Below the pieces are notes generated by a model. The model made no database searches. It worked only from the letters and a program-made list of their open reading frames with translations, and was not told the origin of the DNA. Positions 44,896 to 51,251 of a stretch of 51,251 nt of DNA are shown piece after piece. Each line of letters opens with the position of its first letter. The first letter of the stretch is position 1. This DNA comes from Synergistaceae bacterium (GTDB taxonomy: Bacteria > Synergistota > Synergistia > Synergistales > Synergistaceae). Position numbers and translations under genes: made by a program. The stretch covers positions 1 through 51,251 of the forward strand of contig JAISZL010000068.1 of the NCBI GenBank assembly GCA_031269245.1, given 5' to 3'.

Positions 44896-46893
44896 ATGCC
44901 GGAGGAAATCAACGCGATAACCGGAGGTGCGGTCACCTCCGACCAGGCCGCGCCGAGCGCCGACTACGGCGCCAAGGACATTCAGGTTTTGGAGGGGCTG
45001 GAGGCCGTTCGCAAGCGGCCGGGCATGTACATAGGCGACCAGGGTTCGAGGGGTTTGCACCATCTCGTCTACGAGGTGGTTGACAACTCCATAGACGAGG
45101 CCCTGGCGGGTTTTTGCGACAAGGTGGACGTAACGATACATCCTGACGGCAGCGTGTCGGTGAGGGACAACGGGCGGGGCATCCCGACCGAGTACCACCC
45201 GGGGGCGGGCAAATCTGCCGCCGAGGTGGTGCTGACGGTGCTTCACGCCGGGGGCAAGTTCGACAAGGGCGCGTATCAGGTGTCCGGGGGCCTCCACGGA
45301 GTCGGGGTGTCGGTCGTGAACGCGCTGTCTTCCTGGCTCGAACTGAACATCAAGAGGGACGGCGGCGAGTTCGTCCAGAGATACGAGCGGGGAATCCCGG
45401 TCAGTGAGCTGACGCGAGCCGGGGATTCGGACGAGCACGGCACGACCGTCCGCTTCATGGCGGACGATGAGATATTCTCGACCACGGAGTACCTCCCCGA
45501 TATTTTGAAGGGGCGGTTGCGCGAGCTGGCGTTCCTCAACCCGGGCGTCACCATCACGTTCACCGACACCCGCCCCGACCCGTCAGAGGAGGAGGAGGAG
45601 GAGGAGGAGGAGGGGAGGCCTCCGCAGGTCAAGTCCTTCCACTACGAGGGGGGGATCCGCTCCTTCGTCGAGTACCTGAACAGGGGCAAGGAGACGGCGT
45701 TCAAGCCTCCTCTCCGCATACAGGGCGCCAGGGACAGGACGACGGTCGAGGTGGCCCTTCAGTACAACGATTCGTACATTGAGCGCGTATTCGCATTCGC
45801 CAACCTCATAAACACCGTCGAGGGAGGCACCCACGTCTCCGGGTTCCGTACCGCGCTCACCAGGGCCATCAACGACGAGGCCCGCCGCGCGAAACTGCTC
45901 AAGGAGAAGGACGCCAACCTCTCCGGGGACGATCTCAAGGAGGGGCTGACGGTGGTGATATCCGTCAAGCTCATGGAGCCGCAGTTCGAGGGGCAGACCA
46001 AGACCAAACTCGGCAACGGGGACGTCAAGGGGATCGTCGACTCCATAGTCTACGAGGGGCTGAAGGTGGCCTTCGAGGAGACGCCCGAGATACTGAAGCC
46101 CATCGTGGACAAGGCTATGCGCGCGCGCCAAGCCCGCGAGGCGGCGCGAAAGGCCCGCGACCTCGTTAGGAGGGGGTCGGCGATGAACAAGCTGGACCTC
46201 CCGGGCAAGCTGGCGGACTGCTCGAACCGCGACCCGTCCGAGTGCGAGCTGTATATAGTCGAGGGGGACAGCGCCGGCGGCAGCGCCAAGCAGGGGCGCG
46301 ACAGGGGGTTCCAGGCCATACTGCCTCTTCGCGGTAAGATACTGAACGTGGAGAAGGCCCGGCTGGACAAGATTCTCTCCAACGATGTCGTCCGTACGAT
46401 AATCCAGGCGCTCGGGTGCGGGCTGGGGGACGACTACGACCCGTCGAGGCTGCGCTATCACAAGATATTCCTGATGGCCGATGCCGACGTCGACGGGGCG
46501 CACATCAGGACGCTGCTCCTCACGCTCTTTTACCGCCACATGCCCCAGATAATAGAAAACGGGCACCTCTTCGTCGCGCAGCCGCCGCTCTACCGCGTGC
46601 AGGAGGGGAAGAAGGTCGAGTACTGCTATTCCGAGAAGGATCTGAAGGACACGACGGCCAGGATGGACCCCAAGCGCACGAGCGTGCAGCGGTACAAGGG
46701 TTTGGGCGAGATGAACCCGGGGCAGCTCTGGGAGACCACGATGGACCCCGAGAACCGCATAATCCTCAAGGTTCGGGTGGAGGACGCCATCCTGGCCGAC
46801 GAGCTGTTCGGCATTTTGATGGGGGATGCGGTGGAGCCCAGGCGCGAGTTCATAGAGAACCACGCCAGGGAGGTCCGCAACCTTGACATCTAG
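44896..46893 (+). CDS. gyrB: DNA gyrase subunit B
   Basis: GyrB provides the ATPase of DNA gyrase. The 665 residues show the GHKL ATP site ([45 protein letters not shown]), the transducer domain, and the TOPRIM domain with [15 protein letters not shown] and [13 protein letters not shown]. The C-terminus [20 protein letters not shown] is complete. A nine-residue glutamate run (GAG repeat) sits in the transducer region. ATG 44896 is preceded by GGAG at five bases; the longer ATG 44857 has no ribosome site. gyrA is not downstream; a dCMP deaminase overlaps the end. Confidence 0.97.
45586..45612 (+). repeat. (GAG)9 trinucleotide repeat inside gyrB
   Basis: Nine GAG codons in a row encode a glutamate tract just before [11 protein letters not shown]. 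Slippage here would change the number of glutamates without shifting the frame. Confidence 0.9.
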
Positions 46894-49960: not shown

Positions 49961-49988
49961 TTGACAAAACGTGCCATGAGGGTAGAGA
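49961..49988 (+). promoter_or_regulatory. Promoter of the cobalamin riboswitch transcript
   Basis: TTGACA (49961-49966) and TAGAGA (49983-49988) are 16 bases apart. Transcription should start near 49995, about 80 bases before the riboswitch core. Confidence 0.5.
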
Positions 49989-50077
49989 ATCTTTTCGCTA
50001 AACATAATTACCCGGCGCCAGAAACGCGGAACCTACATAACTGAATAGAAAAGCATTGAAGAATCCAAGGCAATCAA

Positions 50078-50216
50078 GGAATCCGGTGAGAGACCGGAGC
50101 GGCCCCGCCACTGTGATCGGGACGAAACCGCGTGCGCAAGCGAGCCACCGTCATTATGGGAGTAATGATGGGAAGGCGCGGGAGTAGGATGAACGTGAGT
50201 CAGGAGACTAGCCTGG
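50078..50216 (+). promoter_or_regulatory. Cobalamin (AdoCbl) riboswitch
   Basis: The RNA shows the conserved order of a B12 riboswitch: GGAATCCGGTGAGAGACCGG, then CCCCGCCACTGTGATCGGGA, a variable stem with GCCACC, GGGAAGGCGCGGGAGTAGGA, and the B12 box region AGTCAGGAGACTAGCCTGG ending at 50216. Binding of adenosylcobalamin usually switches genes off. A strong intrinsic terminator follows 80 bases later, which indicates control by premature termination. The regulated gene should be a B12-related function. The first clear gene on this strand is the secreted protein at 50929, 600 bases beyond the terminator. Confidence 0.92.
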
Positions 50217-50296
50217 ATGAGTATGATATGAATGCGCGATGGGCGCAGGCGTGTCTCTTTTCCATTATCCCCGGGATGTGCCGTAAGGTTTCAGCG

Positions 50297-50325
50297 AGGC
50301 CCGCGCGCGAGTGCGGGCCTTTTTT
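50297..50325 (+). terminator. Riboswitch expression-platform terminator
   Basis: AGGCCCGC (50297-50304) pairs with GCGGGCCT (50313-50320) and a T-run continues to 50325. It closes the riboswitch transcript when the ligand-bound fold is formed. Confidence 0.88.
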
Positions 50326-50360
50326 GATTGCTTGAATTTTACGGGAAGGGGGTGAGAATA

Positions 50361-50534
<174 letters not shown>

Positions 50535-50928
50535 AAGAAGCCCCGATCTTCCCGGCGATTCGGGCAAAAGGCATTATCGGTCAAAATTATTCGCGGTTCG
50601 GTTTTTTAAAATTTTTACTTCCTTCAAAACCCATCACATTCCCCTTCTTAAACTTCCCGCATGGATGCGCGGCGGCCTTGCCTGGGCCACCGCGCGGCGA
50701 TTTTCGCGCTTGCGGCGCTGACTGCCAAGTGCCCCGGGAATAAACGCGCGCGCTGAGGCGATGTCGCAGGCGTAAAGCAGGGCATTTTACAGGAAGGGGT
50801 GGTGCGCTCGTTGATACCGATTTCGCAATTGGCATGAGGTCAAAGGATTTTAACGGCAGTGTTTGCGCGCCAAGGGGCATACCTTTGACACCTGATTGAA
50901 ATTGAATTGACACAAGGAGGTTTTGGAA
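50535..50928. other. Non-coding region before the secreted protein gene
   Basis: These 394 bases show no gene that can be supported. They contain a weaker relative of the dispersed motif (GATACCGATTTCGCAATTGG, 50813-50832) followed by AAAGGATTTT, and TTGACA near 50885 without a clear -10. A GC-rich stretch near 50660-50760 has many short palindromes. Confidence 0.5.
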
Positions 50929-51251
50929 ATGCGCTTGCGGAGAAACAAAAGTTTTCTGCTGGGGGTAATTTTGATTTTAATGGCGCTATTCGCCATGACA
51001 CCGCCGGCTATGGCGGGGGAGGGGGGATTGGGTGGGCTATTGGAGCTTGACGAGGCGCTCGAAGGCGTTCCGGACAACTGGTACAAGCACATACAGACGA
51101 ACTGCGATTATAAGCGCCTGGCCATAGGAGATACGGCCACGATCTGGCCGCGCACGTATTCGAATGGCCTGGAGGCTGGCCTCGGTGCCGTGGAGTTCAG
51201 CGTCATAGCCGGGGAAGACGTGATAAGCCTGATGAAGGTGGACAACAGCGA
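50929..51251 (+). CDS. Secreted protein with possible Ig-like domain (partial)
   Basis: The gene is cut by the window edge after 107 codons. AAGGAGG lies about nine bases before the ATG. A signal peptide is clear: MRLRRNKSFLLGVILILMAL and a probable cleavage after PPAMA. The mature part begins GEGGLGGLLELDEALEGV and continues with YKRLAIGDTATIWPRTYSNG and VEFSVIAGEDVISLMKV, which resembles the start of a bacterial Ig-like (BIG) domain used in surface proteins. It may be under the B12 riboswitch, or be served by a separate promoter. Its full length and function cannot be seen. Confidence 0.85.
   Translation, partial: MRLRRNKSFLLGVILILMALFAMTPPAMAGEGGLGGLLELDEALEGVPDNWYKHIQTNCDYKRLAIGDTATIWPRTYSNGLEAGLGAVEFSVIAGEDVISLMKVDNS

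Follow-up and report, generated by a model that had tools for sequence, protein, structure and literature searches.

A cobalamin riboswitch and a tetranucleotide-repeat leader reading frame precede the gene for a candidate B12-capture surface protein in a Synergistaceae bacterium

We report that a 51,251-nucleotide stretch of Synergistaceae DNA (the whole stretch analysed, hereafter the window) carries near its 3' end a cobalamin riboswitch with an intrinsic terminator, a short leader open reading frame (ORF) holding a perfect tetranucleotide tract, and the 5' part of a gene encoding a secreted protein (Table 1). Our data make it rather probable that this is a B12-repressed locus for a B12-capture surface protein, with a phase-variation leader placed in series with the riboswitch. 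The window is the entire contig C73 of a genome comprising 98 contigs and 2.34 Mb, and the contig end at 51251 falls inside the secreted gene; the target of the riboswitch is therefore cut off rather than absent. Judging from the name prefixes of the leader-bearing Synergistaceae metagenome-assembled genomes (MAGs), which are probably those of a termite-gut series, we take the host to be an uncultured, probably termite-gut, bacterium.

Table 1. Features of the riboswitch, leader and secreted-gene region of the window
Feature	Position	Strand	Evidence
Putative sigma-70-type promoter TTGACA-18-GAGAAT, 5' of the riboswitch	49961..49990	+	Consensus scan
Cobalamin riboswitch aptamer	50050..50230	+	RF00174, 81 bits, E 1.8e-18, full model 1-189
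Intrinsic terminator of the riboswitch, GAGGCCCGCGCGCGAGTGCGGGCC + T-run	50296..50325	+	Terminator scan: 11 pairs, 8 G-C
Shine-Dalgarno-like AAGGGGG of the leader ORF	50346..50352	+	Sequence
Leader ORF, GTG start (MVFTD...), VVFTDVLLNKPVQSS(AGRQ)n..., start block RTGGTTTTTACTGAT	50361..50534	+	Sequence and recurrence
(GGCA)16.5 tetranucleotide tract within the leader ORF	50405..50470	+	TRF, 100% matches, score 132
Secreted-protein gene, 5' part, cut by the contig end	50929..51249	+	SD 50914-50920 (AAGGAGG), signal peptide

The riboswitch is a genuine, ordinary cobalamin riboswitch. It aligns to the full RF00174 model (gathering score 31.5 bits), its terminator is a GC-rich hairpin followed by a T-run, and the segment from the aptamer end to the terminator folds with a z score of -2.84 relative to shuffled sequences. 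A sequence-only reading of the same DNA had named both the riboswitch and its terminator and had noted a gap of about 600 bases before the first clear gene; all of this holds, the first clear long gene starting at 50929, 604 bases past the terminator. The Rfam scan of the window revealed no RNA families besides the cobalamin riboswitch, and a weak isrD match at the terminator was judged to be due to chance. In a consensus scan the putative promoter was the sole plus-strand match between 49650 and 51000. The same scan, which relied on the consensus only, gave no plus-strand match between terminator and gene, and thus none of the separate strong promoter for the gene at 50929 that the sequence-only reading had regarded as evidence against riboswitch control.

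With 15 RF00174 matches this genome has the highest number among the 53 genomes of the family. The window riboswitch resembles other members of its class in that a full-model aptamer is followed by an intrinsic terminator, and elsewhere in the genome such riboswitches lie ahead of genes for B12 uptake and synthesis, among them those for a FecCD permease, a periplasmic binding protein, CbiK/CbiD and a BtuB-like TonB receptor; an NRDD reductase gene also follows a copy. It differs in that its expression platform is separated from the secreted gene by the conserved, tract-bearing leader ORF. Tandem cobalamin riboswitches were also observed, with a pair ahead of a single gene set at L030 (G000:C24:22865-23610), three on L180 (G029:C198) and two on L181 (G023:C340), while at L027/L028 (G000:C43:50672-51210) two divergent copies lie back to back, one of them preceding a periplasmic-binding-protein gene.

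The gap between riboswitch and gene is occupied by a Shine-Dalgarno (SD) sequence, the GTG-initiated leader ORF, which starts 36 bases past the terminator and stops at 50534, and the tract, which is the top-scoring tandem repeat of the window as judged by TRF; leader ORF and tract had escaped the sequence-only reading. The tract has the form of a simple sequence repeat (SSR): its short units are repeated perfectly in tandem, and it lies within a translated frame, close to the start of that frame. Elsewhere in the window, the gyrase B gene contains an in-frame GAG repeat (45586-45618) encoding a run of glutamates. The three frames past the tract end at 66, 253 and 275 nt, while the gene begins at +460, i.e. 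all three stop 185-395 bases short of it, and the window copy is therefore not a canonical switch. In this copy the tract, with its repeat number, could influence the secreted gene at most indirectly, through transcription polarity, or would be vestigial. We also considered the conserved block as a promoter, with a TACAAT-like box ahead of the tract, and rejected this since no fitting -35 element is present and the SD sequence together with the start codon fit better.

A DNA search showed that the leader piece recurs in its own genome. The block ATAGTGGTTTTTACTGATG is present in 10 copies there and in 15 of the 53 family genomes in all, representing four genera, while the reversed pattern gave no match. 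Using a codon-degenerate pattern together with MAGN repeats we also retrieved ATG-start versions, including two in the own genome (on C33 and C36), which brings the total to 16 of the 53 Synergistaceae genomes; again the reversed-pattern control gave none. Leaders with a short repeat number 12 in the own genome. Among GTDB contigs the exact 19-mer was found in 22 places, 17 of which are in Synergistaceae MAGs and nearly all of these with repeats; the five on non-Synergistaceae contigs lack SSRs, correspond to about the number expected by chance and were not accepted as leaders. The repeat units include GGCA, GACA, GCCA, GCAA, CATA, ATCT, GACG and one 8-mer, and the tract sits at the same place in other leaders as in the window. 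Moreover, a G-rich SD block at -12..-8 is kept in 42 leader copies and the first base of the start codon is conserved as A or G (ATG/GTG swaps), which points to translation of the leader. Read on the forward strand, none of the tract units contains a stop, which would also be true of 192 of 240 units. Within the start block the codons for V, F and D never differ in their third base, and a nucleotide-level role or recent spread of the block is therefore possible. As to the surrounding sequence, a dispersed repeat, GTTTGGCGCG..TTCACGCTTGCCTCGCTCGC..GTACCGAAAGTACG, lies directly 3' of GACA/GACG tracts in several genomes (L036, L037, L112, L097 and L083), and other tracts are followed by a CTTCTAGGTAATTTTT-like sequence and a palindrome.

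The sequences downstream of the tracts provide supportive data suggesting frame switching in the leader family. Specifically, 20 of 39 non-redundant loci have a stop in two frames no more than 30 nt past the tract and a third frame that stays open for 90 nt or longer, whereas shuffled sequences showed this at 3.0 loci on average and at 9 at most (300 shuffles). Of the loci with a clear pattern, three currently read the open frame, as opposed to 17 that do not. A gene with an SD sequence and a signal peptide follows on the same strand within 800 nt of the leader in 24 of 36 cases vs 291 of 3000 random positions. At G032:C109 (962 aa), G039:C29, G038:C64 and G032:C43 one frame continues from the tract straight into a secreted ORF, and the last three of these ORFs are open to the end of the stretch examined; at G038:C64 and G039:C29 no start codon was seen between the tract and the hydrophobic core. 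Four loci (L156, L087, L162 and L036) show a 4-nt overlap between the stop of the leader frame and the start of the secreted gene. The frame pattern, the placement before secreted genes, the fusions and the overlaps together support frame switching. We rejected direct fusion to a secreted gene as a general rule for the leaders, since there are only four clear fusions and most leaders have a separate downstream gene. The anatomy of the family is that of slipped-strand phase variation, and from it we infer slippage itself. At one further locus, L039:129-3560 (G000:C70), a (CAGG)18 tract that begins differently (VILRIC...) is joined in frame with the signal peptide of a secreted protein of 1144 aa, which has Ig-like/Rib-type matches; this phase-variable gene lacks the MVFTD block.

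In the genome under study seven of the 12 leaders lie within approximately 400 nt 3' of a cobalamin riboswitch or a riboswitch-like element (binomial estimate 7e-18), and the pairing with a cobalamin riboswitch also occurs in G023, G030, G032 and G034. For most leaders in other genomes no riboswitch is detectable, which suggests that the leader is a general element of surface-protein genes that was recruited here. The short cobalamin-like elements (GGGCAACCCGGTGAAAGACCGGGACAGCCCGGCTACTGTA...) 5' of leaders L035, L036 and L037 score 33.1, 28.6 and 22.6 bits, i.e. low or below the RF00174 cut-off, and appear as a variant class undercalled by the Rfam model. At L041 (G000:C32, oriented position 2566) a leader with (CATA)9 seems to have had its aptamer deleted, leaving a terminator-like remnant that resembles the one on C24.

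Only 107 residues of the window protein are present. The sequence-only reading had described it as secreted and Ig-like, of which the first is borne out by the signal peptide; the second is not, a Pfam search with the 107-aa fragment having given nothing useful and no Ig-like domain. The fragment is related to a 1633-aa lipoprotein encoded on C91 (37% identity over 71 aa, E 1.3e-9) and to a protein on G029:C235 (38% over 55 aa). A riboswitch-like element (22.6 bits) and a leader stand at the head of the C91 operon, and a broken relative of the C12 propeller gene comes after the leader. The 1633-aa protein matches DUF4430 at 22.3 bits, just under the cut-off of 23.8, and its 413-aa neighbour also has DUF4430. 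G029, another species, has three cobalamin riboswitches in a row, one of which precedes a DUF4430-type protein; approximately 500 nt, without an intervening leader, separate another riboswitch from a relative of the C91 beta-helix protein. These neighbourhoods lend support to the suggestion in the sequence-only reading that a B12-controlled surface protein is involved. Its alternative, that the original target was lost, is not needed, since relatives of the window protein follow cobalamin riboswitches and the gene is merely cut by the contig end.

The contig C55 (5421 bp) starts inside a homolog of the 3' part of the C91 protein gene (C-terminal half to two thirds; 51% identity over 576 aa), and its product matches DUF4430 at 31.1 bits (cut-off 23.8) and ends, as judged by eye, in a Synerg-CTERM-like tail. 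The window holds the only unpaired 5' end and C55 the only unpaired DUF4430-bearing 3' part, hence by parsimony the two are probably one gene, C55 being the 3' continuation with approximately 1.4 kb missing; this middle part was not found on any contig of the genome.

The alpha/alpha barrel of the C91/C55-type protein, modelled alone from a two-sequence alignment, was predicted with a pTM of 0.79, while DUF4430 and barrel folded together gave a poor model (pLDDT 48). Foldseek matched the predicted barrel to human intrinsic factor (3kq4/2pmv) with a probability of 1.00 and a TM score of up to 0.65, at ranks 2, 3 and 5, with E values of only 0.03-0.07 and with other barrels also matching. Transcobalamin and haptocorrin come next among the best PDB structure matches; E values range overall between 0.03 and 0.1, and other alpha/alpha barrels (terpene cyclases, alpha-2-macroglobulin) score like intrinsic factor. 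A sequence search of the PDB with the barrel returned only a weak cyclase match. DUF4430 has been noted at the C-terminus of transcobalamin-like proteins (PMC4350170). The C91/C55 protein resembles human intrinsic factor, transcobalamin and haptocorrin in DUF4430 and in the predicted barrel fold but is bacterial, has DUF4430 ahead of the barrel and shows no detectable sequence match to those chains. On the basis of this model we infer that it may bind B12 and regard it as a candidate B12-capture protein composed of DUF4430 and an alpha/alpha barrel. In Bacteroides, operons for B12-capture lipoproteins (BtuG, BtuH and relatives) encode riboswitch-controlled surface or secreted proteins beside a BtuB-type TonB receptor (PMC12751083). 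The Synergistaceae genome likewise has surface or secreted proteins encoded behind riboswitches, a BtuB-type receptor and beta-propeller-like proteins (C12, C8 and C86), whereas its candidate capture protein is of the DUF4430 and alpha/alpha-barrel type.

In the mechanism that we favour, plentiful B12 would hold the transcript off through the transcription-terminating riboswitch, and when B12 is scarce RNA polymerase would pass the terminator. The first part translated after read-through would be the short leader ORF (MVFTD...) with its hypermutable tetranucleotide tract, and further 3' would follow the signal-peptide surface protein, a B12-capture protein to judge from homology and the probable continuation on C55. 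The window leader would be one copy of a family-wide phase-variation device of Synergistaceae surface-protein genes, in which gain or loss of a repeat unit would change the distance that leader ribosomes travel; at other loci this would determine translation of the secreted gene, through direct fusion or stop/start coupling. More tentatively, we suggest that two switches might act in series, the riboswitch responding to scarce B12 and the leader selecting a fraction of the cells, the leader being an undescribed lineage-wide module of the Synergistaceae.

Alternatively, the region might be an ordinary long 5' UTR, with the surface protein under the control of the riboswitch only and the repeat-bearing leader a passenger that has no effect on this gene, either a decayed former target or a spread repeat. 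This we consider rather unlikely: it would agree with the three frames stopping before a gene that has its own strong SD sequence, with the similar distance of approximately 500 nt in G029 where the leader is absent, and with the C91 leader preceding a broken gene, but against it stand the tract, kept perfect over 16.5 units, and the association of leaders with riboswitches in seven of 12 cases here and again in four other genomes. Even less credence is given to a lost target, the secreted gene then being an unrelated neighbour with its own promoter. The 604-nt distance would fit, as would the contig end, which leaves the operon unreadable, yet the consensus scan detected no plus-strand promoter between terminator and gene, and homologous proteins, with DUF4430 and intrinsic-factor-like domains, lie behind cobalamin riboswitches elsewhere; we regard this reading as very improbable.

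It is also conceivable, albeit improbable, that block and tract work as DNA or RNA elements (through protein binding or mRNA structure, or as a recombination hot spot) and not as a translated frame switch. The invariant third codon positions in the block would be explained in this way, and upstream tracts that alter mRNA levels are known: in Moraxella, where uspA2 and mod genes show tetranucleotide-repeat phase variation, an AGAT tract upstream of uspA2 acts on transcription (PMC7302503). Against this stand the ATG/GTG swaps with a conserved SD block, the strong post-tract frame pattern, the fused ORFs and, less informatively given that most units would be so anyway, the stop-free tract units. 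The Synergistaceae leaders resemble the Moraxella systems in placing a perfect tetranucleotide tract close to the start of surface-protein genes or ahead of them, but differ in that they share a start block (SD and RTGGTTTTTACTGAT) across many loci and species, are often a separate upstream ORF and lie partly behind a riboswitch.

In the open-access literature we found no paper on a riboswitch and repeat-based phase variation in series, nor on repeat-based phase variation in the Synergistaceae, and the leaders apparently constitute an undescribed phase-variation family. Riboswitches and repeat-based phase variation are each well known, and bacteria use such repeats for random on/off switching of surface proteins. 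If our reading, a B12-repressed capture locus with a phase-variation leader, is right, B12-capture surface genes would be subject to both nutrient sensing and a random switch, which would make them a testable example of environment-gated bet hedging, and a bacterial intrinsic-factor-like B12-capture protein would bear on how gut bacteria compete for B12. Finally, the leader could serve as a simple sequence tag by which the phase-variable surface genes of this uncultured lineage may be catalogued.
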